A stretch of 22,034 nucleotides of DNA from a virus. A program made the translations under genes and the position numbers. The notes under the pieces are model-generated. The model did no database searches and was not told where the DNA came from. It saw only the letters and a list, made by a program, of their open reading frames with translations. The stretch is from positions 1-22,034 of the IMG/VR virus record IMGVR_UViG_3300020191_000081; one strand, written 5' to 3'. Below, in pieces: positions 1 to 17,403 of this stretch (position 1 is its first letter; the number at the start of each line of letters is the position of its first letter).

Positions 1-436
1 AGTTCCATCCACGACCATCGATTGCTAAGATATCTGATTCTTTATATCCTGAACTAAGAAGTGCATATGCTGCATGTGATTGATGATGGTCAATATAGTA
101 TTTGTTACCGATTAATTTATAATCCCACAACGTAGAAGGCTTAAATTCTAAAAATTCTTTTTCTATATTATGATAAGGTATTGATTCTATTCCGCCTACA
201 GTTATAGTAAATGCTAGAACTTCATGATTATCTGGTTTGAAATATTCGTCATAAAATTTTCTAGTATATTTTGTATCTTTTTTATTCATTCTTGATGCTT
301 CGGAATGATGTGGATATACATCAACATGCCATGGAACATTATGTTTTTTTCGGCTATATCTTTCTATTTGATTATGGAACATCCCATCATATGTATTATG
401 ATCATGTGGACCTAGGGCTATACTAAATATTTTCAT
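1..436 (-). CDS. NodU/CmcH-family O-carbamoyltransferase, N-terminal part (cut by window edge)
   Basis: The minus strand reads 145 codons from an ATG at 434-436 without a stop to the window edge; the C-terminus lies outside. The N-terminus (FSIALGPHDHNTYDG) fits the family opening with a conserved His-Asp (H11, D12), followed by an ERYSRKKH segment (residues 25-32), the hallmark HHQSHAA metal/ATP-site motif (117-123) and AIDGRG (138-143). Family members transfer a carbamoyl group from carbamoyl phosphate, via a carbamoyl-adenylate, to a hydroxyl of a sugar or antibiotic; full-length proteins are usually 500-600 residues, so roughly a quarter is visible. Its start overlaps the end of the SGNH gene by 14 bases, so it is the fifth gene of a coupled operon. 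The substrate cannot be told from sequence; a sugar made by the neighbouring enzymes is the natural guess. The other metal ligands and the C-terminal domain cannot be checked here. Confidence 0.82.
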   Translation of the reverse strand, partial: MKIFSIALGPHDHNTYDGMFHNQIERYSRKKHNVPWHVDVYPHHSEASRMNKKDTKYTRKFYDEYFKPDNHEVLAFTITVGGIESIPYHNIEKEFLEFKPSTLWDYKLIGNKYYIDHHQSHAAYALLSSGYKESDILAIDGRGWN

Positions 437-1082
437 ACATAAAATCCGCTATTAATTCTTGTCCTTTTTTATTTGGGTGAGCATCTTCATTAGATATTTC
501 AAAACGCCTGTCTGGTTTATGTACTATTTTATTTTGAATATTAAAACCTCCAATTTCTTTAAATATTGGCCAACCTATAAAATTATCTTCGTTGATTAAA
601 TCAATAATTACGCTAGTTTCAAAGGAAACTAAAGCCCTTCTATTACCAATTCCACTACCATCCCCATACTGTGTTGGACTTAACATTTGAACTTGTTTAT
701 ATGGTACTTTAATATATTCACATAATATTTGAAAACTATAATAATATCTTATTTGTCTTTGGATCCAATATTCATTTGTCCCCTTTATATCAAATCTTTC
801 ATTATTCCAAGTTTTATTCTGTTTTTGCCAATCACGTCTTTCTGATTTTGACCAAGCCGCAATTACTAAACCAATATTACTAGTATGAGGTACTGTTTCT
901 AATAAGCTATTATATATGTATTCAGAGCCAGAACCTCCCTTACCTAGGTTAATGCATTCCATTCCTAATTTTTCGGCCAACATTTCTGGCCATTTTGGCC
1001 AAGAGCAATCTAGCTCCGGATGGAACACCGACTCAAATTTTGTATCACACCAGCTGCAACCTGAAACAATTAGCTTTTTCAT
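423..1082 (-). CDS. SGNH/GDSL-like hydrolase or acyltransferase
   Basis: A 219-residue protein. It opens MKKLIVSGCSWCD, where GCS (8-10) sits at the position of the GDS nucleophile block and S10 would be the catalytic serine. A glycine-rich GKGGSGSEY stretch near residue 48 fits block II, and a C-terminal NEDAHPNKKGQ (198-208) fits the Asp/His block V with H202 as the base. Such proteins remove or transfer acyl groups on sugars and other small molecules; short versions are common in marine T4-like phages. No signal peptide or membrane segment is seen, so it should act in the cytoplasm of the infected cell. It overlaps the radical SAM gene by 4 bases (ATGA) and the carbamoyltransferase gene by 14. 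GCS instead of GDS, and an uncertain acidic residue (E199 or D200), leave hydrolase versus transferase open. Confidence 0.62.
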   Translation of the reverse strand: MKKLIVSGCSWCDTKFESVFHPELDCSWPKWPEMLAEKLGMECINLGKGGSGSEYIYNSLLETVPHTSNIGLVIAAWSKSERRDWQKQNKTWNNERFDIKGTNEYWIQRQIRYYYSFQILCEYIKVPYKQVQMLSPTQYGDGSGIGNRRALVSFETSVIIDLINEDNFIGWPIFKEIGGFNIQNKIVHKPDRRFEISNEDAHPNKKGQELIADFMYENI

Positions 1083-1894
1083 AAACTAGGTCCTGATGCA
1101 GCTAAAATACTTAAAAGCATTTCCCTATTTATTTTTGGTATTTTTTCAGTACATACCTTACAATATTCTTCAAATTCAAAAAGTTGATAGTTCATCATCT
1201 TATCGACATTCTCTTGACTAATTTCATATTGGCGAGAGCCATTAATTACTTTTTTGCTACAATGTCTTATTTTTTTGATTTCGAAATCAATTACCGGTAC
1301 TGATGGAAATGCAGCACAGATCCTTCTTTTTTCCTCAGGGTCTTGTTCCAATCTGTTAAAAGTGGGAGACCTTGAATTATATGCTTTGAGTATGGTATTG
1401 TCATGATCAATATATCTTAAATCATAATTTTTTCTATATTCAAAATAGCCAGGAGTTTGAATTACGATATTATAGTTATTCTTGTCATTTTTTTCGAAGA
1501 AATCGTAATTGCCTAGTTTTTCCATTTTATCCCCGTAAAAATCTAATACTAAATGTTCCATATAAAAAATTGTAGGATCTTCTAATACAAATGGATATTT
1601 TTTTCTTACAAATGAATTAGATAATACTGCAGGAATATGTTTATCGTTTTTTTTTATTTCAGAAATAACCTCATCTAGATTTTTAATTAAACCAGGCTCT
1701 CCTCCAAGAAGATTAAACTTAGCTTTATAATTTTTAAAATAATCTAGGGTTTCTCGTAGGAAATCCATATCAACAGTTAGATTTCTCATTTCAAGTGTCC
1801 ACGCAGTACAATAATGGCAAGACTTATTGCATGACATTGATAGGTATAGATCTATTGAAGGATAACCAATACTTAGTTCATTATATGATATCAT
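1079..1894 (-). CDS. Radical SAM enzyme with extra C-terminal cysteines
   Basis: A 271-residue protein with the canonical 4Fe-4S motif CNKSCHYC (C22, C26, C29) and a GGEP SAM-binding motif (64-67) in the expected order. This defines a radical SAM enzyme that cleaves S-adenosylmethionine to a 5'-deoxyadenosyl radical. After the partial barrel there are further cysteines at 193, 212, 245 and 248 (ending CKVC), similar in spirit to the auxiliary-cluster region of SPASM/twitch proteins but shorter. The reaction is not predictable; epimerisation, dehydration or C-H functionalisation of a sugar or peptide are all known for the superfamily. Its start codon overlaps the aminotransferase stop as ATGA and its own stop overlaps the SGNH start the same way. 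The start is supported by this coupling; no strong Shine-Dalgarno sequence is visible. Confidence 0.85.
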   Translation of the reverse strand: MISYNELSIGYPSIDLYLSMSCNKSCHYCTAWTLEMRNLTVDMDFLRETLDYFKNYKAKFNLLGGEPGLIKNLDEVISEIKKNDKHIPAVLSNSFVRKKYPFVLEDPTIFYMEHLVLDFYGDKMEKLGNYDFFEKNDKNNYNIVIQTPGYFEYRKNYDLRYIDHDNTILKAYNSRSPTFNRLEQDPEEKRRICAAFPSVPVIDFEIKKIRHCSKKVINGSRQYEISQENVDKMMNYQLFEFEEYCKVCTEKIPKINREMLLSILAASGPSL

Positions 1895-2949
1895 AAGAAT
1901 ACCGATTCTATTTCTATTAGGATTTTATTTATCTCTTCACTAGTTAGCCATGGATGAATGGGTAAAGACAATATGGATTTACTTACTAGTAAAGAGGTTG
2001 TCCTAACTGGGCCGCTATACATACTATTTTCAGATATAGTTTTTTCATAATGTACTTGTGCTTTTAACCTATTTCTAACACGATCTCTGATATCTTTATT
2101 TTCAAAACGAACAGTATACTTATGATAGTTATGGTTTAGCCCATTACTACATTTTTGTATTGATACTGGAAGATCATTTAGTACGTACTCATATTCCGAA
2201 GCTATTTTTTGACGCTTAGTTTGCCATTCATCCATTTTATCTAAACGGAAATTAATAAATGCAGCATTCATATAAAACATTTTAGAATTATATCCTAGGA
2301 ATTCAAAGTCATTTCCTTTACCATGCTTTCTTAATTTCCTTACATATTCTGCTTTATTTTTGTTATTGGTCATAAGCATGCCACCACCAGATATACCAGC
2401 AATGACCTTATTATTATTAAAGCTATAAGAACTTATATCTCCAATCGATCCGGCCTTTACACCATTCAGACTTGATCCTAATGACTGTGCAGCATCTTCA
2501 ATAAAGACAATATCATTGTCTTTGCAATATTGTAAGATTTCAGATGTATCGGTCATGTTACCAAAAAGATGGGTGTATATTAATGCCTTGGTTTTTTTGG
2601 TTGTTCTTTTCTTGATCTCTGGGAATGATATGTGATATGAATCTAAATCAATATCACAAAAGACCGGCGTAGCGCCTGTTCTAGTAATACAGGATGCTGA
2701 CGATATCCAAGAAAAATCACTTACTAATACCTCATCACCTGGACCAATATCATAGCATAGCAACGAATAGTAAAGTGCATCAGTAGCGCTATTTACGGCT
2801 ACCGCGTAACTTCTATCTGAATATTGCGCAATACGTTCTTCTAGAAATTCTACATTGCTATCATTATCTTCTTGCATTACTTTATGAAAAAGATCTGAAT
2901 AGGCATCTTTATTTTCTAGGTATTCTCTATCCCATCCATTATAATTCAT
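1891..2949 (-). CDS. DegT/DnrJ/EryC1-family PLP-dependent sugar aminotransferase
   Basis: A 352-residue protein of normal length for the family. Visible landmarks are VAVNSATDALYYSL (51-64, cofactor-phosphate region), GDEVLVSDFSW (71-81), FIEDAAQSLGS (149-159, the Asp that contacts the pyridine nitrogen), and SYSFNNNKVIAGISGGGM with the Schiff-base lysine at K181. Family members transaminate nucleotide-linked keto sugars (usually from glutamate) to give amino sugars for O-antigen, capsule or glycoprotein glycans; a minority are dehydratases, but these replace the lysine, which is present here. The gene overlaps the upstream glycosyltransferase-like gene by 11 bases and the radical SAM gene by 4. 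A GGAG about 12 bases before the ATG is a fair ribosome site. This is the clearest indicator that the cassette makes or changes a sugar. Confidence 0.93.
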   Translation of the reverse strand: MNYNGWDREYLENKDAYSDLFHKVMQEDNDSNVEFLEERIAQYSDRSYAVAVNSATDALYYSLLCYDIGPGDEVLVSDFSWISSASCITRTGATPVFCDIDLDSYHISFPEIKKRTTKKTKALIYTHLFGNMTDTSEILQYCKDNDIVFIEDAAQSLGSSLNGVKAGSIGDISSYSFNNNKVIAGISGGGMLMTNNKNKAEYVRKLRKHGKGNDFEFLGYNSKMFYMNAAFINFRLDKMDEWQTKRQKIASEYEYVLNDLPVSIQKCSNGLNHNYHKYTVRFENKDIRDRVRNRLKAQVHYEKTISENSMYSGPVRTTSLLVSKSILSLPIHPWLTSEEINKILIEIESVFL

Positions 2950-3760
2950 TTACAATATTCTCCACATTAGGCTTTTCAATTTTTCTTTTGTAATATATTT
3001 CAGCGCCTTTATTCATGGCTTCAAATATGATAGGTTTATTGTAGTATTTACACTCCTGTATAATACGGGGTGCAGGATCATTTATACCTTTAGTGTACAC
3101 ATACGAATCGAAGATACCAAGTAAATTATCAACTGGTACAATAATATGATTATTCTGATAATTTACTACGCCAATATCATATATCAAAATGCCATGTGAT
3201 TCGTACTTGTGTAATACAGATTCTGCAGCACTATAGTAATCGTTATTGGTACCATTGAAAAGATACTTAAATTGGATATCATTTTCAATTGGTTTATGTA
3301 CATCAAAATATATTCGTTTTTCGAATGGCTTTCCTTCACCATATGGATACACCTCATAGTCACAAAGATCTACTACTAATTCTGGTACAAAATAAGAAAG
3401 AGCATTATAGTATTCTATCTTATGATTTTCTGAGTATACAGCAAGTACCTTTCCTTTAAAAAGTAAATGTAATAAAAGCAACTGGTCGCTACTATAATTT
3501 TCCCGATTTAGAAAACCATGTGTCATCATACTTCTACCCATAATCAAGGTAACACCATCCATTGCCATATCATTAAAAATGATATTATTAAATGATGTGT
3601 ACTTTTTGGTGATAGCGTCGAAGTAATCTTCAGCTTTAAAATGAGGATGTGTTACAATTACCAAGTGACATTTTACGCCAATTGAATTTAGATAACAACA
3701 ATATTCATAACTGTAATAAAGCAAACCATCACAAGGTTTACTAGTGCATACTATATTCAT
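2939..3760 (-). CDS. GT-B glycosyltransferase-like protein
   Basis: A 273-residue protein, first gene of the leftward operon. The N-terminus (MNIVCTSKPCDGLLYYSYEY) resembles the Rossmann start of GT-B enzymes. The C-terminal stretch NDPAPRIIQECKYYNKPIIF (about 226-245) has the layout of the GT4 donor-binding E-x7-E region, where an acidic residue precedes a hydrophobic beta strand. The protein is shorter than the usual 350-400 residues and I cannot point to a full EX7E motif, so donor and acceptor are unknown. Similar proteins occur beside aminotransferases and carbamoyltransferases in marine phage genomes. The start is the first ATG after the divergent promoter region; no strong Shine-Dalgarno sequence precedes it. 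Alternative: a non-catalytic or otherwise distinct Rossmann-like protein of the cassette. Confidence 0.5.
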   Translation of the reverse strand: MNIVCTSKPCDGLLYYSYEYCCYLNSIGVKCHLVIVTHPHFKAEDYFDAITKKYTSFNNIIFNDMAMDGVTLIMGRSMMTHGFLNRENYSSDQLLLLHLLFKGKVLAVYSENHKIEYYNALSYFVPELVVDLCDYEVYPYGEGKPFEKRIYFDVHKPIENDIQFKYLFNGTNNDYYSAAESVLHKYESHGILIYDIGVVNYQNNHIIVPVDNLLGIFDSYVYTKGINDPAPRIIQECKYYNKPIIFEAMNKGAEIYYKRKIEKPNVENIVNEL

Positions 3761-3793
3761 TTTTTAAGACCAAATAACATTTCAATCAAAGGT

Positions 3794-3801
3794 TATTTAT
3801 C
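3794..3801 (-). promoter_or_regulatory. Possible late promoter for the leftward cassette
   Basis: Read on the minus strand this is GATAAATA, one base off the T4 late box TATAAATA, 34 bases before the first leftward ATG. The same GATAAATA variant occurs before the gene at 11347. The region is AT-rich, so a chance match is possible. Confidence 0.35.
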
Positions 3802-3808
3802 GATCGTT

Positions 3809-3816
3809 TATAAATA
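3809..3816 (+). promoter_or_regulatory. T4-type late promoter box
   Basis: A perfect TATAAATA, the box recognised in T4-like phages by RNA polymerase carrying the phage late sigma factor (gp55) and co-activator. It lies in the divergent intergenic gap about 50 bases before the first rightward structural gene, as expected for virion genes. Confidence 0.65.
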
Positions 3817-3832
3817 CTAAGCAGCATTCTTT

Positions 3833-3840
3833 TATAAATA
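3833..3840 (+). promoter_or_regulatory. Second T4-type late promoter box
   Basis: A second perfect TATAAATA, 24 bases after the first and 26 bases from the ATG at 3867. Transcription from about 10 bases downstream would leave a short leader containing the AAAGGA ribosome site. The two boxes in tandem suggest strong late expression of the fibre array. Confidence 0.68.
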
Positions 3841-3866
3841 AAGAAAATAAAGGATAATTTATCAAC

Positions 3867-4220
3867 ATGGCTCAATACGAAGATTTTACAATTGATCAAG
3901 GTACGGACGTGGCAATTGAGATCCATGTTGTTGATGCTTTGAATGCTACTAAAAATTTGACAAACTATTCTGTTTCTGCTAAGATGAAAAAGACTTACAA
4001 CAGTGATAGTTCAGACACAACTAATTTTACATCAATTGTTTCTACACCACCTACTGATGGGATTGTTACTCTATCACTTACCAATACCCAAACAGATAAT
4101 TTAAAATCAGGGCGATATGTATATGATGTAGAACTTTCCTTTGTTGATAGCGCCGGCAGTACAATTGTCGAAAGAATACTAGAAGGAAAAATTTTAGTTA
4201 CACCATCTGTTACTAAATAG
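3867..4220 (+). CDS. Small phage structural protein with LtfC/Gp6-like beta-sandwich
   Basis: A 117-residue all-beta protein. The pattern DFTIDQGTDVAIEIHVVD near the start, a T-NYSVSAKMKK strand, D-GIVTLSLTNTQTDNLKSG, then GRYVYDVELS and a final ILEGKILVTPSVTK matches what I know of the LtfC/p132/Gp6 beta-sandwich domain found in fibre and neck regions of many tailed phages. It is probably a small virion or fibre-attachment component. It is the first gene behind the tandem late boxes, with an AAGGA ribosome site, and is followed 8 bases later by the next gene. The exact place in the virion is unknown. Confidence 0.6.
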   Translation: MAQYEDFTIDQGTDVAIEIHVVDALNATKNLTNYSVSAKMKKTYNSDSSDTTNFTSIVSTPPTDGIVTLSLTNTQTDNLKSGRYVYDVELSFVDSAGSTIVERILEGKILVTPSVTK

Positions 4221-4228: not shown

Positions 4229-4489
4229 ATGACAGTTAAAGTTACATCTTCTCAAGAAGCTTCAAAAGTAAAGGTTATATCGACCGATCAGACTACAATT
4301 GTTAAACAAGTTAAAATAGGAACACCAGTAAGACGAGTAACTGGTGGTTCATTTAGTATTAATAGTATCGACGGAGTAAATACATCTGGAAAACAAGATG
4401 GAAGTGTACTCGTTTATAATGCTACCACTTCAAACTTCGAAGCAACATTAAATTTAGATAAGCAATTAGTTAACGGGGGCAACTTCTAA
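4229..4489 (+). CDS. Small fibre-associated structural protein
   Basis: An 86-residue protein. The second half (SIDGVNTSGKQDGSVLVYNA, then a N-F-EAT ending with LVNGGNF) is a recurrent module in marine T4-like phage fibre proteins, where 'DGSVLVYN' segments precede a trimerising end. The first half is rich in Val/Lys and alternates like beta strands. GAGGAA overlaps the upstream stop and serves as ribosome site; the stop overlaps the next start as TAATG. I cannot assign a precise function; a connector or adaptor between baseplate and the fibres that follow is plausible. Confidence 0.6.
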   Translation: MTVKVTSSQEASKVKVISTDQTTIVKQVKIGTPVRRVTGGSFSINSIDGVNTSGKQDGSVLVYNATTSNFEATLNLDKQLVNGGNF

Positions 4490-5820
4490 TGGCCACAATA
4501 ATTCGAATTAAGAGATCCGGCACCACGGGATCTCCAACTACCCTCAAGCTAGGTGAACTCGCGTATACCTATCTTGGCGGTACTCAATCCAACGGTGGTG
4601 ATAGATTATATGTAGGAACCGGCGGCGTTGATTCGAATGGTGACGCTCTTACCTTAGACGTTATAGGTGGTAAATATTTTACTGATAAGTTAGACCATGT
4701 ACCTGGTACACTAACAGCATCAAGTGCTATTATTACCGATGCTAGTAATAAAATTGACGTATTGAACGTTGATAATATTACTATCGACGGCAATGCTATT
4801 ACCTCAACAAACACCAACGGTAATATTACAATTACTCCCGATGGTACTGGCGAGATTATTGCTTCTACCCTAACAGTTAGTGATTTAACAGATAATCGTA
4901 TTGTTCTTGCTGGAGCTAGTGGTGCGCTCGAAGACGATACTAATCTGACGTTCGATGGTACAGACTTTATTATTAATACAACCAGCTCTTTACAAATTCC
5001 AGCTGGTTCTACTGGTGATCGTCCTACTCCCGTTACCGGACAAATTCGCTTTAATACTACACTTGCAGCCTTTGAAGGTTATCATGGTACTTCTTGGAAC
5101 AGTCTTGGTGGAATTATTGACGTTGACCAAGACACAAAAATTACTGCTGAAAATGCCGCTGGCGCAGATTCCGATGCACTAAAATTCTTTACAGGTGGCG
5201 TCTTAAGGATGACACTTGATTCTGCAGAATTATCATTGGATGGTATTAACTTAATTTCAAGTAAGTCTGGTGATACATTAACAATTGATCCAAATCCAGT
5301 AGGTGATTCTGGAACATTAGTTATTCTTGGTAACTTGAAAGTCGAAGGTACACAAACAATTGTTAATTCGACTGCAGTTTCTATTAATGACAAAAATCTT
5401 GTTCTTGCAGATTCTGCAGTAGATTCAGCTGATGCAAACAATGCTGGTTTTACTATTAACGGTCCTGCAAATCCAGTTACATTCCTTTATAAATCAGCTT
5501 CTGATACAATCCAGATCAATCGCCCATTTACGACTCCTGGTGGCGGTGTTACCAATATTCTTGATAATTATACAACCGATGACCTAACAGAAGGTTCTAA
5601 TCTTTATTATACAGACGAACGTGTTGATGATCGACTAAGTAACCTCTTATTAGCAGGTGAAGCAATTGATCTTACATATGACGACAGCGCAAATACTTTA
5701 CAGATCGACGTTGAGCTTGCAACAGTTAGCAATCCTGGTGCAGCTTTCTTTGATTCTGATCAGATGACTGTTACATCAGGATTTGTAACGATCTTTGAAC
5801 TTGATGGTGGTGTATACTAG
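4489..5820 (+). CDS. Tail fibre protein with Mtd-like N-terminal domain
   Basis: A 443-residue protein. Residues 1-40 (IIRIKRSGTTGSPTTLKLGE, then LAYTYLGG and RLYVGTGG) fit the N-terminal domain of major tropism determinant-like fibres, a presumed attachment module. After a repetitive beta region (NITIDGNAI, TPDGTGEI) comes the 'GNLKVEGTQTIVNSTAV' shaft module (about 281-344), which recurs in the genes at 8450 and 11347, then TTDDLTEGSNLYYTDERVDD and a short C-terminal end. No S74 chaperone or recognisable adhesin domain is present, so it is likely a proximal fibre or connector. Start codon shares TAATG with the upstream gene. Confidence 0.72.
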   Translation: MATIIRIKRSGTTGSPTTLKLGELAYTYLGGTQSNGGDRLYVGTGGVDSNGDALTLDVIGGKYFTDKLDHVPGTLTASSAIITDASNKIDVLNVDNITIDGNAITSTNTNGNITITPDGTGEIIASTLTVSDLTDNRIVLAGASGALEDDTNLTFDGTDFIINTTSSLQIPAGSTGDRPTPVTGQIRFNTTLAAFEGYHGTSWNSLGGIIDVDQDTKITAENAAGADSDALKFFTGGVLRMTLDSAELSLDGINLISSKSGDTLTIDPNPVGDSGTLVILGNLKVEGTQTIVNSTAVSINDKNLVLADSAVDSADANNAGFTINGPANPVTFLYKSASDTIQINRPFTTPGGGVTNILDNYTTDDLTEGSNLYYTDERVDDRLSNLLLAGEAIDLTYDDSANTLQIDVELATVSNPGAAFFDSDQMTVTSGFVTIFELDGGVY

Positions 5821-5828
5821 TAATTGAT

Positions 5829-5846
5829 AAGAAGTTTTTACTTCTT
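5829..5846 (+). terminator. Weak AT-rich hairpin, possible terminator
   Basis: AAGAAG and CTTCTT can pair around a TTTTTA loop just after the stop of the fibre gene, followed about 11 bases on by CCTTTTTT. The stem is only six mostly A-T pairs, so it may do nothing; its position in one of the few real gaps (53 bases) is the main argument. Confidence 0.25.
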
Positions 5847-5873
5847 CTATATTACCTTTTTTAAGGACTGACA

Positions 5874-8450
5874 ATGTCAACAACTATTTTTAAACTTAAA
5901 AAGTCTTCTGTTGCGAGTAGAGTACCTGGTACTTCAGATCTAGCTTATGGCGAATTAGCTATTAACTATGAAGACGGTGTAATCTATTATAAAAATAGTT
6001 CTAACTTAATACAAAAGATTGCTTCTAATAGCTACCTACAATTTCCCCATTCTACAACAATTACCTATACAGTTGTTGTTGCCAGTAAAGATGCTACACA
6101 TCGATATAATGGTACCGGATCTGGATCTGGATATAAAATCGATGGTGTCTTTTCACCTTTTCTTACATTAGTACCTGGAAGAACATATAGATTCGACCAA
6201 TCGGATTCTACTAATGGTGGTCATCCGCTATTATTTTATTATGATGCAGCAAAGACTGCTTCTTATACAACTGGTGTTACAACCAATGGTACACCTGGAA
6301 GTGCCGGCGCATATACAGAAATTACAATCAGTGATTCTACACCTTCCGTACTTCATTACCAATGTTCAGCACATGGGTATATGGGTAATGCTGTACAAAC
6401 AAATTCCCGTAATTTAACTGGATTTGATACAGACGATCTTACTGAAGGTTCAACTAATTTATATTACACGGACACGCGGGCTCGCGCGAGCGTATCTTTA
6501 GGTACGGCTGGATCCCAGGCATATAATAGTAGTACAGGTGTATTTACTATTCCTGGTACAACTGATCATATTACTGAAGGTAGTAATCTATACTATACAG
6601 ACGCAAGAGTATCAACATTAGTCGACTCAGCATATGTTCAGGCAAGACAAGTTGATCTACAGAGAGATTCCGCATTTATTACTGGTGTTGTTGATTCTGA
6701 TTATATCAAAACCGTTAATTATTTAGATAATGAAAAACTAATATTTGGAAACAATACTGATCTTCAAATCTATAGTAATGGTACTAACTCATTTATTACC
6801 GAAGGCGGTACTGGAGATCTTGTCTTACAAGGTGGTAACATTAGATTTGAAAACGGATCTGGTGAATACTATATTCGATTATATAATAATAGTAAAGTAG
6901 CTTTATACCATGACAATAGTGTTAAATTAGAAACATCAGCTACTGGTATTACAGTTACAGGTACTGTTAATGCCGATTCTGCCACATTTACTAATCTTAC
7001 ATTAAATAATGAGCTAGTAGATTCTTCTTGGGTACAGGCAAGACAGATTACCTATGACTTCCTAGACTCGAGTGAAGCAATTAATCTTATTGATTCTGCG
7101 TACGTACAAGCAAGGCAAATTACATACGATTTCTTAGATTCCGGTGAAGTTATTAATCTTATTGATTCTGCTTATGTACAGGCTAGACAGTCTATTACTG
7201 GCGGCACTGATCCTATCTTTAAAACAATCTCAGTTTCTGGTCAATCTGATGTAGTAGCAGATCTTGTAGCTGATACACTGACATTAGTTGCTGGTACTGG
7301 TATGACCATTACTACTAATGCTGCTACTGATACTATTACCTTTACTTCTGCAGCAGCTGGTGTAGATTCTGCAGCAACAATTGCTTTAATTCAAGCAAAT
7401 TCTGTTGATTCAGCTGAAGTTATTAATCTAATTGATTCTGCATATGTACAAGCACGCCAATCATCTACTTCTTCGGTTAATACATTTAGTACAATTTCAA
7501 TAGCTGGTCAATCGGATGTAATTGCAGATAGTACTAGTGATACGTTAACATTAGTTGCTGGTTCTGGTATTACACTTTCAACGACCGCTGCATCAGATGA
7601 AATTACAATTACTTCTACCGGCGGTGCTGGAGGTGGTGGACTTGTTACTGGTACAACTTTAACGGCATCAAATAATCTTTATACTGGTGATAGTTCTACT
7701 ACAACATTTACTTTATCAACTGAACCATCAGATGAAAATAATGTAATTATTTCAATTAACGGTGTTGTCCAGCAAGCCGATACATATAGCTTAACTGGAT
7801 CAGTTATTACTTTAGATTCTGCACCTGTTACTGGTGACGAAATTGAAATGAGAGTGTTTAATCACTTCTCTGCTAATGTGTCACTTAGGGATTATCAGAA
7901 TTATGTATACCAACCATCATCTTCAACTACAGCATTTAGTGGTACAGATATAAATGGTAATTCACTTACATATGATGTAGGTAAATTAGAAGTATATGTC
8001 AATGGTGCTAGATTAGTAAATGGATTAGATTATACTGCTACTAGTGGTACATCTGTAGTTTTAATTAACGCAATTGATAATGGAGATACTTTAGAAATAG
8101 TATCATTGGCTGCAGCAACTCTTGTTAATCCGGGAATTGCAATAGTTGATAGTGATTTATCTACAACAACTGTAGATCAAATCGTAGATACATTTTCGAA
8201 AACTCAATATAGAACTGTTAAATATGTTGCACAGATTGAACACGATTCTAGCAGCTCTTATCATGCAGAAGAAATTTTGTTAACACATAATGGATCAACC
8301 GTTGCAATGACTACATATGCTCAAATATTATTAGATTCTAGTTTAGGAACATTTGATGCAGATGTAGTAGGTGATTTAATTCGATTAAAATTTTCACCAA
8401 CAAAAACCAATACTAGCACTAAGCTTAGAAAAATACAGGTGATTGCATAA
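5874..8450 (+). CDS. Large tail fibre protein with embedded cupredoxin-like domain
   Basis: An 858-residue protein, the largest in the window. Order of parts: an Mtd-like N-terminus (1-45, AYGELAINYEDGVIYYKN); a cupredoxin-like domain (about 62-176) with the type 1 copper ligand set H117, C164, H167, M170 in GGHPLL and HYQCSAHGYMGN; two NLYYTD modules (about 190-240); DSAYVQARQ repeats (five forms between 250 and 530) alternating with beta repeats of the type SGQSDVVADLVADTLTLVAG; and two 'ING/YVNGA' beta domains at the C-terminus (about 615-760), also found in the genes at 14948, 16672 and 21550. No S74 chaperone. Ribosome site AAGGA. Likely a long structural fibre that projects a metal-binding or metal-fold head. 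The Cu ligands are seen; copper binding itself is inference. Confidence 0.75.
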   Translation: MSTTIFKLKKSSVASRVPGTSDLAYGELAINYEDGVIYYKNSSNLIQKIASNSYLQFPHSTTITYTVVVASKDATHRYNGTGSGSGYKIDGVFSPFLTLVPGRTYRFDQSDSTNGGHPLLFYYDAAKTASYTTGVTTNGTPGSAGAYTEITISDSTPSVLHYQCSAHGYMGNAVQTNSRNLTGFDTDDLTEGSTNLYYTDTRARASVSLGTAGSQAYNSSTGVFTIPGTTDHITEGSNLYYTDARVSTLVDSAYVQARQVDLQRDSAFITGVVDSDYIKTVNYLDNEKLIFGNNTDLQIYSNGTNSFITEGGTGDLVLQGGNIRFENGSGEYYIRLYNNSKVALYHDNSVKLETSATGITVTGTVNADSATFTNLTLNNELVDSSWVQARQITYDFLDSSEAINLIDSAYVQARQITYDFLDSGEVINLIDSAYVQARQSITGGTDPIFKTISVSGQSDVVADLVADTLTLVAGTGMTITTNAATDTITFTSAAAGVDSAATIALIQANSVDSAEVINLIDSAYVQARQSSTSSVNTFSTISIAGQSDVIADSTSDTLTLVAGSGITLSTTAASDEITITSTGGAGGGGLVTGTTLTASNNLYTGDSSTTTFTLSTEPSDENNVIISINGVVQQADTYSLTGSVITLDSAPVTGDEIEMRVFNHFSANVSLRDYQNYVYQPSSSTTAFSGTDINGNSLTYDVGKLEVYVNGARLVNGLDYTATSGTSVVLINAIDNGDTLEIVSLAAATLVNPGIAIVDSDLSTTTVDQIVDTFSKTQYRTVKYVAQIEHDSSSSYHAEEILLTHNGSTVAMTTYAQILLDSSLGTFDADVVGDLIRLKFSPTKTNTSTKLRKIQVIA
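6057..6401 (+). other. Cupredoxin-like domain with complete type 1 copper ligand set
   Basis: Codes residues 62-176 of the 858-residue fibre. The layout His-(46 residues)-C-x2-H-x2-M is the plastocyanin-type arrangement: H117 in GGHPLLFYY, then a long loop, then C164-S-A-H167-G-Y-M170. Preceding strands (YTVVVAS, FLTLVPGRTYRFD) fit the family's beta sandwich. Similar embedded domains are present, from memory, in marine cyanophage fibres. Confidence 0.65.
6624..7464 (+). repeat. DSAYVQARQ coding repeats in the large fibre
   Basis: Five copies of the DSxxVQARQ unit begin near 6624, 7017, 7092, 7164 and 7434, separated by LIDS/ITYDFLDS/AEVINL segments. The unit recurs in the genes at 11347 and 20726; the stretch from 6624 (DSAYVQARQVDLQRDSAFI) is nearly the same as that from 11503 over about 57 bases. 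Codon choice varies between copies, so the repeat is held at protein level except in that longer match. Confidence 0.75.
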
Positions 8451-10447
8451 TGGCTACTAAATTAAGAAGATCTAATTTTCATACTGATGCAGATAATCAT
8501 GTAAATGAATCTATTAATGCTAAATTAGCAGCAAATTTAGGAAATATATCTACTGGAAATATTACTACTACAGGTTATATTGCTGGTCCTGCTACCTTTA
8601 CAATCGATCCAGCAGCAGTCGGTGATAATACTGGAACATTAATTGTTGCAGGTAATCTACAAGTTGATGGTACAACTACTACTATTAATAGTACAACGTT
8701 GGAAGTTGATGATCTTAATATTACATTAGCAAGTGGTGCAGCAAATGCAACTGCAGCTAATGGAGCAGGTATTACAGTAGATGGTGCCAGTGCAACTATT
8801 ACATATGCATCAGCTAGTGATGCTTGGTCATTTAATAAAAACGTAGGTATTGGTGGAAATACCGCTAGCGCAACGGGATTTGTAAGGTCGCTAAATTTAG
8901 AAGGCTCTGATGTTTCTCTTCAGCTTCGTGAAACCACAACTAATTCAAGTTGGGAAATAGGTAACGATAATACTGGTTTATTTAGAGTTTTAAATAACGG
9001 TGCTAATAAATTAGTTATAAACAGCACTGGTAACGTGGGCATTGGGACGAGTTCGCCAAGCACTGCCTTAGATGTCACCGGCACTGTGACGGCTGATGGG
9101 CTGACTGTTTCACCTAGTTCTGGTGCGGCTATAGGAACAGTTAAGGCTATAGCTGGACAAAGCGCATATGTTTCCATTAGGGGAAACAACACCACATTTT
9201 TAACTGACTCATTTGATATCAACCAGTTGTCAAATGGTTCAGCCGAAGTCATGCAAAGAGCCAATCATCCATTGATTATTGGCACTAACAATACAGAACG
9301 CCTCCGCATCGACAGCAGCGGAAACGTGGGTATTGGGACGAGTTCGCCAACCAACGGAAAGCTAGAAGTCACAAATGCTAGTAGTACAGTCCCCACTGGT
9401 TTCTTCAGAAACACAAGTACCGGTGGTGATAGCCCATCGTTAACTGTGCAGGGTGGTGCAAACAATGCTGCTCCAAACTTTAGTGTCCTTGATTATAACG
9501 GAAACACTGATTTTGTTGTTCAAGGCGCAGGTAACGTGGGCATTGGGACGTCGAGTCCAGTATATACTTTAGTTGTCTCTGAAGATGGTAATGATAATAT
9601 TGAAATTGGCGCTGGAATTATTCAAAGATATAATAGAGCTACTAGTAGTTATGGAGCAATGAATTATTATTCCGCTAGCCATAATTTTTATACCACTGGT
9701 GGTGGACAACAGTCTTTGTTTATTAACAGTGATGGCAAAGTGGGCATTGGGGCGAGTTCGCCTTTTGACGCATTGCACGTTGAAGGAACAATTCGTGGAA
9801 ATGTTAGTAGTGCCTCAGATGAAAATATACGTTTAACAACAACAGGCGGCGGCGGTTTTGTTGTTGATGTTGATGATGCAACTGTAGCCAATCCAACTTG
9901 GTCTATCCGAACATTTGCGTCAGAACCATTGGCGTTTGATATTGGCGGTACAGAACGTATGCGTATTGACTCCAACGGCAGGGTCTTAATCGGACGAACA
10001 ACAACGCTTGGCTACAAACTAGACTTGCTTGGTGATATGCGGTCAGAGCGTTCGGCCGCCAGCGGAACGCATATTGTTTTCACAAACTCTGGTGGAAATA
10101 AAGGTACTATAACAACAGATGCAGCTGGTACAACATACAACACCACATCTGACCGTAGACTCAAAGAAAATATCGGATTGATTACAGATGGTAAAGAAAA
10201 GCTGCTTGCGATGAAACCATCTACATTCAATTTCATAGAAGATGAAAACAAAACAAAAGTGCACGGTTTCATCGCTCAAGAAATGCGAGATATTGTACCT
10301 GAAGCAGTGTCACAAGGTCAGGAAGAAAATGATACTTGGTCAATGGACTATGGTAGAATTACCCCAGTCATTGTTGCTGCATTACAAGATGCACTAAAAG
10401 AGATAGATATGTTAAAAAATAGAATTACAGAATTGGAGGCTAAATAA
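8450..10447 (+). CDS. Tail fibre/spike with C-terminal peptidase S74 chaperone domain
   Basis: A 665-residue protein. Residues 1-60 are an anchor; 68-131 are the shared GNLQVDGTTTTINSTTL shaft module ending WSFNKNVGIGG. A long adhesin body follows, punctuated by five GIGTSSP-type hinges (about 193-515). The C-terminus holds an S74 intramolecular chaperone: TSDRRLKENI with the Ser-Lys catalytic pair S567/K572, HGFIAQE, VPEAV, and a terminal coiled coil (ALKEIDMLKNRITELEAK). In endosialidase-type proteins this domain guides trimer folding and then cuts itself off just before the serine; that is expected here, leaving a mature fibre of about 566 residues. GC-richer codons appear around the hinges and from about 9840. 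Starts within TAATG of the previous stop. Confidence 0.85.
   Translation: MATKLRRSNFHTDADNHVNESINAKLAANLGNISTGNITTTGYIAGPATFTIDPAAVGDNTGTLIVAGNLQVDGTTTTINSTTLEVDDLNITLASGAANATAANGAGITVDGASATITYASASDAWSFNKNVGIGGNTASATGFVRSLNLEGSDVSLQLRETTTNSSWEIGNDNTGLFRVLNNGANKLVINSTGNVGIGTSSPSTALDVTGTVTADGLTVSPSSGAAIGTVKAIAGQSAYVSIRGNNTTFLTDSFDINQLSNGSAEVMQRANHPLIIGTNNTERLRIDSSGNVGIGTSSPTNGKLEVTNASSTVPTGFFRNTSTGGDSPSLTVQGGANNAAPNFSVLDYNGNTDFVVQGAGNVGIGTSSPVYTLVVSEDGNDNIEIGAGIIQRYNRATSSYGAMNYYSASHNFYTTGGGQQSLFINSDGKVGIGASSPFDALHVEGTIRGNVSSASDENIRLTTTGGGGFVVDVDDATVANPTWSIRTFASEPLAFDIGGTERMRIDSNGRVLIGRTTTLGYKLDLLGDMRSERSAASGTHIVFTNSGGNKGTITTDAAGTTYNTTSDRRLKENIGLITDGKEKLLAMKPSTFNFIEDENKTKVHGFIAQEMRDIVPEAVSQGQEENDTWSMDYGRITPVIVAALQDALKEIDMLKNRITELEAK
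9020..9994 (+). repeat. GIGTSSP hinge repeats, set 1
   Basis: Five copies at about 9020-9059, 9296-9349, 9531-9559, 9731-9762 and 9952-9994 encode (ERxRIDSS)GNVGIGTSSP or its variants. Several share the nucleotide string GTGGGCATTGGGACGAGTTC with few changes, in a more GC-rich style than the flanking fibre coding. They separate successive adhesin blocks. Confidence 0.75.
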
Positions 10448-11052
10448 TGTCTTTTAGTATAGGCCCAGAACAAACTATATATAAAGCACCGTCGACTAAT
10501 AGTAATACACATTATATTATACATGAGGTTGCTGGTATCTCTAACTATCAGTCATCGGGAACTATGAGTCACTGGTTTAGAATAAATCTATACGCTAGAT
10601 ATTATAATGCGGACGGACAGGGGGGAAAAGTTGTTCTATTTTTTACAAATAATCCAACACATGCGACAAGAGCAGTTTATAAAGAAATTGAAATTATGTT
10701 TACGAGTGGTGTTGGTGGGGGTTACACCACGACATCAGATAGTAGCGCCATGACTGCAAGGTATCTAAAAGATTTATACATGGGATGGAATTATTATGGC
10801 ATAACATATACATGTAATTTATATTATCCTAATAGTGGATTAACTATTGCTAATTCCAGCGATCCTAGTTATCCCTTACTTTTGAAGATAGATGAAAGTG
10901 GGAACGGAAATTATTCTGGGGGTAAAACCCTACATACTTATGCACAGGTTGCAGGTTCAAATATAGCCATTAGAAATAAAGTAACAGAATACTTAGGTAC
11001 ATCAACCCCAAGTTATTATTCTGGAAACTATACACAACTTACTATTACTTAA
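10447..11052 (+). CDS. Unrecognised fibre-locus protein, candidate tip or adhesin
   Basis: A 201-residue protein I do not recognise. It is rich in Tyr, Ser, Thr and Asn with many short beta-like stretches (WFRINLYARYYN, KVVLFFTNN, LKDLYMGWNYYGITYTCNLY) and no signal peptide, membrane helix or coiled coil. It follows the S74 fibre directly (TAATG, GGAGG ribosome site inside the fibre's last codons) and precedes an assembly-chaperone-like gene, the place where a receptor-binding tip or fibre-associated protein would be expected. Composition and length fit a globular beta-rich tip. Function is inferred from position only. Confidence 0.45.
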   Translation: MSFSIGPEQTIYKAPSTNSNTHYIIHEVAGISNYQSSGTMSHWFRINLYARYYNADGQGGKVVLFFTNNPTHATRAVYKEIEIMFTSGVGGGYTTTSDSSAMTARYLKDLYMGWNYYGITYTCNLYYPNSGLTIANSSDPSYPLLLKIDESGNGNYSGGKTLHTYAQVAGSNIAIRNKVTEYLGTSTPSYYSGNYTQLTIT

Positions 11053-11064
11053 TAGGGATAAAAA

Positions 11065-11301
11065 ATGAACGAAGAATTACCACCAGATATACCAAATGAA
11101 GAATTACCAGAAAATTGGTATCTTGATCCTACTCATCAAATCCCAACGGAAGCACAGCTTCAAGAGTGTTATACAATGCGTAAAATGAATTATCCATCTT
11201 TAGAAGATCAACTTGATGCATTCTGGAAAGGTGGAGAAGATTCAGAGATAATGAGACAAAGGGTTTTAGAGGTAAAGACTAGATTTCCTAAACCGGAATA
11301 A
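11065..11301 (+). CDS. Small tail-fibre accessory protein (YPSLEDQLDA type)
   Basis: A 78-residue acidic protein. Its core YPSLEDQLDAFWKGGEDSEI (42-61) followed by RVLEVKTRFPKPE is a recurring small-protein signature beside tail-fibre genes in marine and other tailed phages, generally regarded as a fibre assembly or structural accessory. The Pro/Glu-rich N-terminus (ELPPDIPNEELPENW) looks unstructured. Ribosome site AGGGAT; 12 bases after the previous stop. It closes the first transcription block, as a late-promoter-like box follows. It differs from the other chaperone-like gene at 19021 except for the shared PKPE/TKPE end. Confidence 0.6.
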   Translation: MNEELPPDIPNEELPENWYLDPTHQIPTEAQLQECYTMRKMNYPSLEDQLDAFWKGGEDSEIMRQRVLEVKTRFPKPE

Positions 11302-11314
11302 TATTATAAAACTA

Positions 11315-11322
11315 GATAAATA
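11315..11322 (+). promoter_or_regulatory. Possible T4-type late promoter (GATAAATA)
   Basis: A one-mismatch late box in a 45-base gap, 24 bases before the ATG at 11347 and followed by a GGAG ribosome site. Position in a true gap between modules supports it. Confidence 0.5.
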
Positions 11323-11346
11323 GAGATATAGATCTCGGAGTAAAGA

Positions 11347-12066
11347 ATGGCAACAACAAAAGCAACTGAACTATCCCAGTTCTCCAGTACCCTTACTGTT
11401 GATAGTAGTGGTAATGTAGTTCTTACTGGGTCAGTTACTGCATCTAGTTTTCTAACTGGAGGTACTGCCTTACTTGATTCTTCGCGAGCGACGTCGCTTA
11501 TCGATAGTGCGTATGTTCAGGCAAGACAAGTTGATCTACAAAGAGATTCTGCATTTATAACTAGTATTGCTGACTCTGCATATGTACAGGCAAGGCAGAC
11601 CGACTTCCTTGATTCAGCCGAAGCTATTAATTTGATTGACTCTGCATATGTAAGAGCAAGAGTAAAAACAAATCAGAATCTACAGACTTCAGATAATGTT
11701 ACTTTTGCAGATTTAACATTATCAGGAAATTTACAGGTTAATGGTACTACAACTACTATTAATTCAACTACATTAACAATTAATGATAAGAATATAGTAC
11801 TTGCTGATTCTGCTGCAAATGCTGCAGCTGCTGATGGTGCAGGTATTACAATTAACGGGGCGAGTGCAACATTAACATATGCCTCAGCTGGTGATAATTG
11901 GGTATTTAATAAAGCCCCTTATTATAGTTCAGCTAGGTTAATTACAACGGACGATAAGTTAATCGACTCAGCTCTTACAACGCAACTTATTGATTCAGCA
12001 TATATACTAGCAAGGGCACCTGAACCCGATGGTGACGGCCTTGCTTATGCTATTGCATTAGGATAA
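11347..12066 (+). CDS. Fibre adaptor protein with DSAYVQARQ repeats
   Basis: A 239-residue protein: an N-terminal anchor (ATELSQFSSTLTVDSSGNVV), four DSAY(V/I) units (VQARQ twice, then VRARV and a terminal ILARA; about 53-222), a KTNQNLQTSDNVTFADLTLS linker, the GNLQVNGTTTTINSTTL shaft module (about 127-190, ending WVFNKAP), and a short tail GDGLAYAIALG. It carries no adhesin or chaperone. Its counterpart is the gene at 20726, which also begins a block behind a late box and is also followed by an 'IPVGGAL' gene. Likely a scaffold on which the following exchangeable proteins are mounted. Confidence 0.68.
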   Translation: MATTKATELSQFSSTLTVDSSGNVVLTGSVTASSFLTGGTALLDSSRATSLIDSAYVQARQVDLQRDSAFITSIADSAYVQARQTDFLDSAEAINLIDSAYVRARVKTNQNLQTSDNVTFADLTLSGNLQVNGTTTTINSTTLTINDKNIVLADSAANAAAADGAGITINGASATLTYASAGDNWVFNKAPYYSSARLITTDDKLIDSALTTQLIDSAYILARAPEPDGDGLAYAIALG

Positions 12067-12076
12067 AGGTTAGGAA

Positions 12077-12406
12077 ATGGCAAACACATTTAGAACATTT
12101 ACAGATACCGCAGTAGGTACAAGTGCTGCAACCATTTATACTGTTCCTTCTGCAACAGCAACTACGATTATCGGTTTGAATATATCAAATATATTAACTG
12201 TAGGAATTACAGTAGATATTCAACTTGAAAATAACGACGGTGATAATGTTTATATTCTAAAGGATGCACCAGTACCTGTAGGTGGTGCACTAGTTGCTGT
12301 TGGTGGAGATCAAAAGATTGTTATGAATGCTTCTGATGTATTAAAAGTAACAGCAAGTCAGGCATCAGCTGCTGATGTAATCGTATCGGTTCTGGAGATT
12401 ACTTAA
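12077..12406 (+). CDS. Small beta-rich virion protein (PVPVGGAL type), copy 1
   Basis: A 109-residue protein: TFRTFTDTAVGTSAATIYTV, then a strand-rich middle (IIGLNISNILTVGITVDIQL) and VYILKDAPVPVGGALVAVGG. It pairs with the 108-residue protein at 21214, which shares the order and most key residues (VGTSAAT, SNI, KD-P-PVGGAL, SGD-LKV). Such proteins are common between fibre genes in marine myoviruses and are probably structural, but their place is not known to me. Ten bases from the previous stop; the stop overlaps the next start as TAATG. Confidence 0.62.
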   Translation: MANTFRTFTDTAVGTSAATIYTVPSATATTIIGLNISNILTVGITVDIQLENNDGDNVYILKDAPVPVGGALVAVGGDQKIVMNASDVLKVTASQASAADVIVSVLEIT

Positions 12407-13554
12407 TGGCTTTAAGCGATATTGATAAATCCCCATTATACATCGATAGTACAAACGGTCGGGTAGGTATTGGGACGAGTTCGCCAAACGAAGCGCTAAC
12501 GATTGAGGCACCGTTATCAGGCGACACTGGATTGGCGATCAACTATAACGGAGACAATAAAGCTGGCATTACAGTTAATCCAACCACGGGTCAAATCCAA
12601 GTTGGCGCACATCCAGACTTAACCAGTGCTAATGCTTATTATTTAAGTTTTAACACCGCTTCATCAAACACTGTTTATGAGCGCATGCGCATCAACAGCA
12701 GCGGTAACGTTGGCATTGGTAGTTCAACCCCTTCATTTCGGCTTGCAGTAGAAGACGGCAGCGGCGCAACACGAGTTAATGTAAGAAACAACGCTAATGC
12801 GGCGGCTGGTTCCGGCATTTACTTTGAGGTTTTAAACGGTGGTAGCACTGTTGGAAATGGAACTATTGCCACTCAAAGCAATGGCGATATGGCGTTTTTT
12901 ACCGGAACATCTTCTGGCGCAGAACGTATGCGCATCGACAGCAGCGGCGTCGTAGGCATTGGTACGAATTCGCCATCTGGTGCAAAGTTAGAGATCTTTA
13001 CAGCTAGTACAGCAGTAGATGGTCTGAAAATATCTAGATATACCCCGGGAAATTACTATTCAACTTTACGTCAAGACAATCACGGCTTAGCTATTCACGT
13101 TGGAACTGGCGGCACTGTTTCTGAACGAGTAGCAATTACACCAAATGGTATTACCTTCAACGGAGACACCGCTGCGGCAAATGCGCTGGATGACTATGAG
13201 GAGGGGACTTGGACGGTTCAGGAACGTCATGGTCAAGCGACAATAACAACAAACAGGGCTAATTACACCAAGATAGGGCGTTTGGTTTACGCTTCTGCCT
13301 CAGTAAATATTAGTTCGACAAATACCAACAACCTCAACCTTACACTACCATTTGTCTCCTCCATTTCCAGTTATTACGCAGGTAACGGCTCTGCGGGTTA
13401 CCACAGCCTTAACAGCACTTATGCCGACAACCTCCGACCTGTAGTTGAAAACGGCGCAGACAATATAATGTTTTACTACGGCACCGGTAGTCTTGTTCCT
13501 TGTAATGGCGCTTCAGGAACTCGCATAGATTTTACAGTAATGTATATGACTTAA
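12406..13554 (+). CDS. Fibre tip protein with GIGTSSP hinges and DDYEEGTW C-terminal module
   Basis: A 382-residue protein. Unlike other fibres it has almost no anchor: a GIGTSSP hinge appears already at about residue 22, then again near 103 and 184. From about 260 the ALDDYEEGTWTV module starts, followed by NYTKIGRLVYASASVNI and a globular beta end; this is a widespread non-S74 C-terminal tip module. Coding style is GC-richer than in the two genes before it, suggesting the body came from elsewhere. It is translated from TAATG after the 109-residue protein with a GGAG site inside that gene. It could be a stand-alone tip held by the adaptor at 11347. Confidence 0.7.
   Translation: MALSDIDKSPLYIDSTNGRVGIGTSSPNEALTIEAPLSGDTGLAINYNGDNKAGITVNPTTGQIQVGAHPDLTSANAYYLSFNTASSNTVYERMRINSSGNVGIGSSTPSFRLAVEDGSGATRVNVRNNANAAAGSGIYFEVLNGGSTVGNGTIATQSNGDMAFFTGTSSGAERMRIDSSGVVGIGTNSPSGAKLEIFTASTAVDGLKISRYTPGNYYSTLRQDNHGLAIHVGTGGTVSERVAITPNGITFNGDTAAANALDDYEEGTWTVQERHGQATITTNRANYTKIGRLVYASASVNISSTNTNNLNLTLPFVSSISSYYAGNGSAGYHSLNSTYADNLRPVVENGADNIMFYYGTGSLVPCNGASGTRIDFTVMYMT
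12454..12976 (+). repeat. GIGTSSP hinge repeats, set 2
   Basis: Three copies at about 12454-12487, 12679-12731 and 12921-12976. The last two include the ERMRI(D/N)SSG lead. CGCATCGACAGCAGCGG at the third copy is identical to that at 9296-9349. Confidence 0.75.
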
Positions 13555-13588
13555 CCAGCTGCAGTCCAACCATCACAGGAGATAAACG

Positions 13589-13639
13589 ATGGCACTAACA
13601 GAAGAACAAGTAGAAGACAAACAGGAATTACCGGAGTAA
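13589..13639 (+). pseudogene. 16-codon remnant of a tail-assembly-chaperone-like gene
   Basis: ATG at 13589 follows a good AGGAG and opens MALTEEQVEDKQ, then closes ELPE-stop at 13639. The last bases (CCGGAGTAAATAAATG, running into the next start) match the end of the intact gene at 19021 (CCGGAGTAAGTAAATG), and both lie directly before an NGAMQVAQR gene. The simplest view is an internal deletion that kept the translation start and the terminal ribosome site for the next gene. It might instead be a functional leader peptide that couples translation; the sequence alone cannot decide. Confidence 0.45.
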
Positions 13640-13643
13640 ATAA

Positions 13644-14762: not shown

Positions 14763-14765
14763 AAA

Positions 14766-14948
14766 ATGGAAAATGAATTAAATATTACATCAGCTAAATA
14801 TATTGCAAAAGATGGTATCAGTAGTTGTATTGAAATAGTTATTAATGAAAAAACTATGTCAGTACCCCTCAACCCTGCCAACCGCCACTACGCAGAAATT
14901 ATGCGTCAGGTAGAAGCTGGCGAATTAACAATACAGGAAGCTGAATAA
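14766..14948 (+). CDS. Small partner protein of the NGAMQVAQR fibre, copy 1
   Basis: A 60-residue protein: LNITSAKYIAKDG, a Val/Ile-rich middle, then SVPLNPANRHYAEIMRQVEA and GELTIQEAE. It lies 3 bases after its fibre gene and overlaps the next start as TAATG. The C-terminal half is nearly the same as that of the 59-residue protein at 20497, which follows the other NGAMQVAQR gene, so the pair travels together. A NxxHYxxI-type C-terminus is common in small proteins next to phage fibres; a role in fibre assembly is a reasonable guess. Confidence 0.65.
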   Translation: MENELNITSAKYIAKDGISSCIEIVINEKTMSVPLNPANRHYAEIMRQVEAGELTIQEAE

Positions 14949-16672: not shown

Positions 16673-17403
16673 TGGCATATATAGGATCAGAGCCAAATTA
16701 TGGTACTATAGCTTCCCAGAGATTTACTGGTGATGGTTCAACTACTGCATTTGGTCTAACACAAACAGTACCAGATGGTGAATCGATTCTAGTTACTATT
16801 GGTAACGTAGTACAAGAACCAGGTGCAAGTGCAGCTTATGTAGCAGGTGCAAATACTCTAACATTTAGTTCTGCACCTGCAAATGGTGATGTAATCATTG
16901 TCAGATATCTTGGTAGATCAATTGATACACCATCAAGTTATACTAATGTTATACGTTTTAAATATGTAGCAACTTCCGGACAAACAGTCTTTACAGGTTC
17001 TGATGTTAATAGTGCTATCCTTTCATTTTCAGGTTCGATTGTAAATGTATTTCTAAATGGAGCACATTTGGATGAAACAGATTATACTGTTAGTGGTGGT
17101 GATACAGTTACTTTAGTTAGTGGTGCAACAACAGGTGATGAATTAGTCATTATCTCTTATAGAGATCAGACATTTTCGGATGTTGTAGCAGCATCGACTG
17201 GCGGTACCTTTACAGGAGGACTTACAGCACCAAATTATCAGACAACAGCTACAACTGTACATACAGCAGTCTTTAGAACAAATAATCAAACTGTAACTCA
17301 AGATACTACTATAGATAGTGCAGAGAACGCATTAGCTATCGGTCCATTGACTATAAATAGCAGTGTAACTATTACAGTTGATGGAAATTTAACAATACTG
17401 TGA
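16672..17403 (+). CDS. MAYIG-type fibre protein without chaperone
   Basis: A 243-residue protein: MAYIG adaptor (1-84; FTGDGSTTAFGLTQTVPDGE, NVVQEPGASAAYVAG, VIIVRYLG), a second beta domain (about 95-165, IVNVFLNGAHLDETDYTVSG) like the last domain of the 858-residue fibre, and an end piece with ALAIGPLTINSSVTITVDGN, a common phage fibre terminus that reads like a short beta helix. It lacks hinges, adhesin and chaperone. It may be a connector, or a MAYIG fibre whose tip is supplied by the separate short genes that follow. TAATG start with GGAG upstream. Confidence 0.68.
   Translation: MAYIGSEPNYGTIASQRFTGDGSTTAFGLTQTVPDGESILVTIGNVVQEPGASAAYVAGANTLTFSSAPANGDVIIVRYLGRSIDTPSSYTNVIRFKYVATSGQTVFTGSDVNSAILSFSGSIVNVFLNGAHLDETDYTVSGGDTVTLVSGATTGDELVIISYRDQTFSDVVAASTGGTFTGGLTAPNYQTTATTVHTAVFRTNNQTVTQDTTIDSAENALAIGPLTINSSVTITVDGNLTIL

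Follow-up and report, generated by a model that had tools for sequence, protein, structure and literature searches.

Results

The window analysed here is a 22,034-base stretch of viral DNA, the whole of IMG/VR record IMGVR_UViG_3300020191_000081, which contains no further contigs. Positions 2–3760 are occupied by five open reading frames (ORFs), all on the minus strand, that together form a predicted sugar-modification cassette. From operon 5′ to 3′ they encode a small GT-B-fold glycosyltransferase-like protein of 273 amino acids (aa) (2939–3760), a DegT/DnrJ/EryC1/StrS sugar aminotransferase of 352 aa (1891–2949), a twitch-type radical SAM enzyme of 271 aa (1079–1894), a divergent SGNH-like protein of 219 aa (423–1082), and, as its first 145 aa only, a NodU/CmcH/TobZ-type O-carbamoyltransferase whose gene continues past the contig end (2–436). 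Neighbouring genes overlap by 11, 4, 4, and 14 nt, and these successive overlaps indicate translational coupling. A first-pass annotation, made from the letters of the window alone, had described such a coupled operon, and the five overlapping genes are present as it described.

Relatives of the cassette proteins were found in viral contigs from three independent seeds, the radical SAM (173 relatives), GT-B (238), and carbamoyltransferase (159) proteins, and co-occurrence was counted at those loci, 36–38 for each seed, that had 6 kb or more of flank on each side. The radical SAM gene was accompanied by a carbamoyltransferase at 38 of 38 loci, a DegT gene at 36, a methyltransferase-like gene at 35, and a GT-B gene at 34; around the carbamoyltransferase there was a methyltransferase-like gene at 36 of 36, DegT at 35, radical SAM at 34, and GT-B at 32; and around GT-B there was DegT at 36 of 38, carbamoyltransferase at 33, and radical SAM at 32. 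The order GT-B, DegT, radical SAM, carbamoyltransferase was kept in 165 loci, some of them overlapping on one contig, with 76 distinct radical SAM sequences, and 1,260 of 1,464 adjacent cassette gene pairs overlapped. This recurrence confirms the five-gene observation as real and far beyond chance, and a chance arrangement of the genes was ruled out. The search for the same set in marine phages that had been suggested for the window returned its exact five-gene order in at least four other contigs (L006/L095, L008/L096, L004/L176, and L019). The five genes as a unit stood only in part: they do co-occur, but the conserved unit is larger and more variable. By comparison among loci, its core is GT-B, DegT, radical SAM, and carbamoyltransferase with a methyltransferase-like gene past the contig end, the SGNH gene being optional. 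In L095 the five genes are followed by GT-A-type and methyltransferase-like genes and then by opposite-strand fibre-side genes, and GT-A-type and methyltransferase-like genes should likewise lie past the left edge of the window.

Catalytic residues are invariant across relatives, apart from the divergent, optional SGNH gene. The DegT protein matched PF01041 at 264.5 bits (cut-off 19.8; E 2e-78); its Schiff-base lysine, Lys181, lies in SFNNNK and is present in 107 of 107 relatives, and K181 is invariant in the 107 DegT sequences together with the EDxxQ residues E151, D152, and Q155, which bears out the earlier call of an aminotransferase with its Schiff-base lysine intact. Its best PDB sequence match was glutamine--scyllo-inositol transaminase (E 4e-60), and none of the named DegT substrate groups (PseC, LegC, ArnB, and others) was reached, the best NCBIfam score being 184.9 against a cut-off of 423.5.

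The radical SAM protein narrowly exceeded the PF04055 cut-off (29.8 bits vs 29.5) and contains the expected CxxxCxxC motif as C22-x3-C26-x2-C29, so that this identity also held, with C193, C212, C245, and C248 as further cysteines. All seven are invariant in 32 aligned sequences, and the last four would likely ligate one auxiliary [4Fe-4S] cluster. The structural model (predicted local distance difference test, pLDDT, 84, low at the cluster loop, residues 21–36) matched the folds of BlsE (Z 12.8; 4.1 Å, 239 residues aligned) and BtrN (Z 12.5; 3.7 Å, 201 aligned), with SuiB and anSME matching less well, and supports assignment of the 271 aa protein as a BtrN/BlsE-like twitch radical SAM enzyme. 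In BtrN, itself a twitch enzyme, four cysteines ligate the auxiliary cluster, and the reaction is oxidation of a hydroxyl on an aminocyclitol (PMC9012708).

There was no family match for the GT-B gene in Pfam, PHROG, or NCBIfam, and a PDB profile search with its alignment gave no useful sequence match. Because family profiles gave nothing, the protein was modelled structurally. The AlphaFold2 model (pLDDT 93.1; predicted template modelling score 0.90) matched GT-B enzymes, with PimA at Z 14.8 (4.1 Å over 243 residues), BshA at 14.6, and HepE at 14.4; WaaG was also among its relatives by fold, and the T4 DNA alpha-glucosyltransferase (AGT) matched at Z 13.4 amid many near-ties. The motif D228-x7-E236 (DPAPRxxxE) is invariant in 107 of 107 relatives. 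Assignment to the GT4 family (Glycos_transf_1) was not supported: there was no Pfam hit, and the E-x7-E motif takes the form D-x7-E. The model supports a small GT-B-fold enzyme with both Rossmann-like domains, and in this respect the GT-B-like call survives the want of any sequence-family match.

The carbamoyltransferase fragment matched PHROG 1601 (Nol-like; E 4e-6), keeps an HHQSH motif, and is at most 78% identical to full-length relatives, which are about 500 aa long with both N and C carbamoyltransferase domains. In the homologue from Pelagibacter phage Mosig, discussed below, the two domains scored 69.5 and 221.8 bits (cut-offs 24 and 27), and the relatives' profile matched the NovN, GdmN, and TobZ structures in the PDB at E 1e-75 to 1e-65. 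These matches and the full-length relatives uphold the identity first proposed. Truncation of the gene had been a concern, but relatives retain about 500 aa and both domains: the gene is cut by the contig edge and not broken. GNRAL or GHRAL occurs in 113 of 115 cassette carbamoyltransferases, with GPRAL in core cyanophage enzymes, in HTVC008M, and in a phage 5-hydroxymethylcytosine (5hmC) carbamoyltransferase; a carbamoyltransferase tree that took in the 5hmC and core cyanophage enzymes was set aside for its very long branches. At two loci, two adjacent carbamoyltransferase-like ORFs of about 355 and about 530 aa replace the single one (L074:10786-13478 and L077:10786-13427).

The SGNH-like protein was the least secure of the five. 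Its Pfam GDSL match was sub-threshold (17.6 bits vs cut-off 32.9; E 0.006), its alignment drew no useful PDB profile match, the one to a GDSL lipase being weak (E 0.002), and the family proved too divergent for a DNA-pattern search, which recovered just 2 loci. The block I serine, Ser10, is nearly invariant and His202 is invariant in the family, while the GxND block (III) is absent and DxHP spacing replaces DxxHP, such that the original SGNH call stands for the serine and late histidine but not for the remainder. Since serine and histidine remain and other blocks do not, activity is doubtful. The gene was present at 16 of 38 well-flanked radical SAM loci, and the "acyl exchange" assigned to it is the weakest of the assignments.

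A divergent promoter region of 106 bases (3761–3866) separates the cassette from an L-shaped tail fibre assembly family gene (PHROG 3304/1084; 3867–4220, plus strand), which serves as a marker of the fibre side. Its cassette strand bears a T4-late-like GATAAATA at 3801, 41 nt upstream of the GT-B start, and its fibre strand bears two copies of TATAAATA, at 3809 and 3833. A cassette-strand T4-late-like NATAAATA was found in 22 of 33 non-redundant loci, compared with a mean of 3.6 and a maximum of 9 in 200 dinucleotide-shuffled sets. Judged from motifs, the pattern points to late expression of the cassette, possibly with an early component. The cassette is directly divergent from a fibre-assembly gene of the same type in many Kyanoviridae-like relatives, in agreement with the link to fibre genes first drawn from the window. 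Beyond this gene and outside the cassette, ORF, Pfam, and PHROG evidence identifies tandem tail-fibre and virion-structural genes on the plus strand (4229–22032). This fibre-like array carries repeated DSAYVQARQ-type motifs and a peptidase S74 chaperone domain in the gene at 8450–10447, with a similar C-terminus in the gene at 14948–16672, and its GC content is 40% compared with 31% in the cassette.

Pelagibacter phage Mosig EXVC030M (MT647606) was the only isolate with radical SAM, GT-B, and SGNH relatives. It was isolated on HTCC1062 (SAR11), and its genome announcement is silent on the cluster, which lies at 61–71 kb between tail-fibre and VrlC/baseplate genes. The pelagimyophage/cyanomyophage host recognition cluster is marked by tail-fibre genes set between VrlC/baseplate and neck genes; in the window the fibre side adjoins the cassette, and a VrlC side would be beyond the contig. 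All five homologues are on the same strand in Mosig, with identities of 50% for GT-B, 42% for SGNH, 56% for DegT, and 58% for radical SAM. Differences are that a second radical SAM/SPASM pair interrupts the order, SGNH precedes DegT, and DegT is C-terminally extended. The Mosig cluster is annotated as molybdenum-cofactor and hypothetical proteins, and for the GT-B homologue, Mosig_00083 (L083 16563-17429), the GenBank label of molybdenum cofactor biosynthesis enzyme was not supported here.

Common inserts among the relatives were a second radical SAM gene with a separate SPASM-like ORF, and nitroreductase-like proteins. The split radical SAM core and SPASM-like ORFs, which in Mosig overlap by 8 nt (L083:17426-18061 and 18054-18392), lie beside the cassette in most relatives and may represent a two-subunit enzyme or a frameshift. 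A protein of about 100 aa with the motif N.MIDITD, possibly a partner or carrier, occurs in some phages between DegT and radical SAM (L132:14468-14788 and L084:3823-4149) and as the C-terminal DegT extension of Mosig (L083:19095-20354), and is absent from the window. A QueC-like PP-loop protein also recurs near the cassette (e.g. L158:13875-14642; 70 copies, redundancy not removed).

Scanning GTDB genomes with the radical SAM alignment gave three contigs from metagenome-assembled genomes (MAGs), binned as Rhodobiaceae (L084), Pelagibacter (L085), and Gammaproteobacteria (L086), each with the phage cassette. Two of them have phage fibre-side genes beside it and the third is short and carries the cassette alone; all three are most simply seen as misbinned phage DNA rather than host loci. 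Among 297 genomes of the order of L085 (Candidatus Pelagibacter), GT-B and a full radical SAM match were found in the L085 MAG only, with weak partial radical SAM matches in five further genomes. Within this genome sampling the cassette appears to be phage-borne, and an origin as a host-derived O-antigen operon was unsupported by either survey.

Discussion

The gene identities, invariant catalytic residues, two modelled folds, conserved order, location, and late-promoter-like motif are what the locus presents, and the enzyme families, folds, and invariant residues support the sugar-modification chemistry that had been anticipated for it. From these we infer a substrate, an order of reactions, and an acceptor. 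The leading explanation, which we put forward tentatively, is a phage-specific cytosolic sugar-tailoring cassette. Its twitch radical SAM enzyme would oxidise a ring hydroxyl of a nucleotide-linked or free sugar or cyclitol to a ketone in the manner of BtrN, the DegT enzyme would convert the ketone to an amine as BtrS/BtrR do on aminocyclitols, the GT-B enzyme would transfer the sugar to its acceptor, and the carbamoyltransferase would carbamoylate a free hydroxyl. The SGNH-like protein perhaps adds or removes an acyl group, and in complete relatives the methyltransferase-like protein and GT-A-type enzymes may complete the glycan. As acceptor, the phage's own tail fibres or further receptor-binding virion proteins are the likeliest, and these are encoded in the same region. 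A simple hydropathy scan found no membrane segments in the core cassette proteins, and with no flippase or polymerase recognised either, the balance tips towards a cytosolic acceptor, a fibre protein for instance, rather than a new surface polymer. If fibres are decorated, the phages would be making an unusually elaborate modification of their own virions, one that adds a chemical layer to host recognition by marine phages. Since Mosig was isolated on HTCC1062, mass spectrometry could address this directly.

Several points weigh against this explanation. A fold match proves no reaction, and the alcohol oxidation by the radical SAM enzyme is putative; the placing of the acceptor on fibres is likewise something we infer, and lipopolysaccharide precursors could be altered by soluble enzymes too. 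There is no sugar-nucleotide-making enzyme in the core cassette, so the starting sugar must derive from the host or elsewhere. Strict sigma-70-like promoters precede the cassette in 10 of 33 loci compared with 0.3 expected, an excess that suggests a degree of early expression and would also be in keeping with host takeover. A T4-type fibre/baseplate marker was within about 10 kb at only 8 of 23 well-flanked loci, and when seven of the remaining loci were followed outward, the flanks read showed one weak fibre match and no T4 core gene of those sought. In favour of the explanation, those of them that were annotated have large fibre or virion-structural genes within about 6–20 kb of the cassette. 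An unrelated lineage was considered for them and dropped, since one cassette-bearing record of 261 kb encodes a terminase and, in divergent form, a gp23-type capsid protein, placing it in the wider T4 superfamily.

A serious rival, which we consider less probable, is that during infection the cassette changes the lipopolysaccharide or some other glycan of the host surface and so blocks adsorption of competing phages. Glycosyltransferases in the host recognition cluster of pelagimyophages have been interpreted in this way (PMC7029224); the idea is consistent with WaaG and HepE as fold relatives of the GT-B protein and with the sigma-70-like promoters before about one third of loci, and if correct it would bear on competition among pelagiphages. 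Against it, no flippase, polymerase, or membrane-bound transferase was recognised in the core cassette, the core enzymes were not found in the host-order genomes sampled, and the late-type motif shared with fibre genes would be late for superinfection exclusion.

A more speculative and rather unlikely reading is that large marine phages carry an exchangeable assembly line, based on radical chemistry and resembling aminoglycoside decoration, that combines radical SAM oxidation and transamination with glycosyl transfer, O-carbamoylation, and methylation; extra radical SAM/SPASM, nitroreductase-like, and hydroxylase modules would be swapped among the phages, and receptor-binding fibres would be marked with a new chemical class that sets host range or hides the virion. 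The same resemblance, of DegT, BtrN/BlsE-like radical SAM, TobZ-like carbamoyltransferase, and methyltransferase-like genes, could instead point to an aminoglycoside-like small molecule that diffuses, or to a modified ribosomal peptide, directed against competitors or the host, and many loci add the split radical SAM/SPASM pair and the protein of about 100 aa between DegT and radical SAM. We regard this as improbable, as no cyclitol synthase, precursor peptide, transporter, or resistance gene was recognised and the persistent location is the virion fibre region. DNA base hypermodification, in which GT-B and carbamoyltransferase would act on a hydroxymethylated base, had been raised only as a rival and is now very improbable: a phage 5hmC carbamoyltransferase of the same broad family is known (PMC8670742) and T4 AGT, nearly tied with many others, is one of the fold matches, but identity to the 5hmC enzyme is only 22–28%, the cassette lies in the fibre region, and the thymidylate synthase/hydroxymethylase family was missing in 7 of 8 large cassette records, Mosig included, where the eighth has one copy with two in-frame stops and the other seven are all possibly incomplete.

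Several known systems invite comparison. The phage 5hmC carbamoyltransferase resembles the cassette enzyme in broad family and in being phage-encoded, and differs in sequence, in the hydroxymethylase lacking from most cassette records, and in its neighbours: DNA-modifying members adjoin thymidylate synthase and dCMP deaminase, while glycosyltransferase neighbours mark unmodified contigs (PMC8670742). TobZ, NovN, GdmN, and NodU share the Carbam_trans N and C domains, the HHxSH motif, and, with the cassette relatives, a form of about 500 aa, but have GPRAL in the members checked where the cassette enzymes have GNRAL or GHRAL. Butirosin BtrN with BtrS/BtrR shares the twitch fold with four further cysteines, a DegT-family neighbour, and sugar/cyclitol chemistry (2-deoxystreptamine), but identity by structure alignment is about 11% and the cassette is phage-borne and lacks a cyclitol synthase. 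For pelagimyophages, a host recognition cluster was reported in 2020, and its role was taken to be an O-chain modification that counters coinfection; it is a variable region of this phage group that combines tail fibres with glycosyltransferases and radical SAM cassettes, and the main text of that paper mentions neither this core nor a carbamoyltransferase or DegT (PMC7029224). A full-text search of open-access literature found no phage paper on the combined enzyme set. Glycosyltransferase/radical SAM cassettes were thus already known; to these the present analysis adds the definition of a conserved core with its likely chemistry, shows that it extends beyond Kyanoviridae-like contigs, and tests it at the level of residues.

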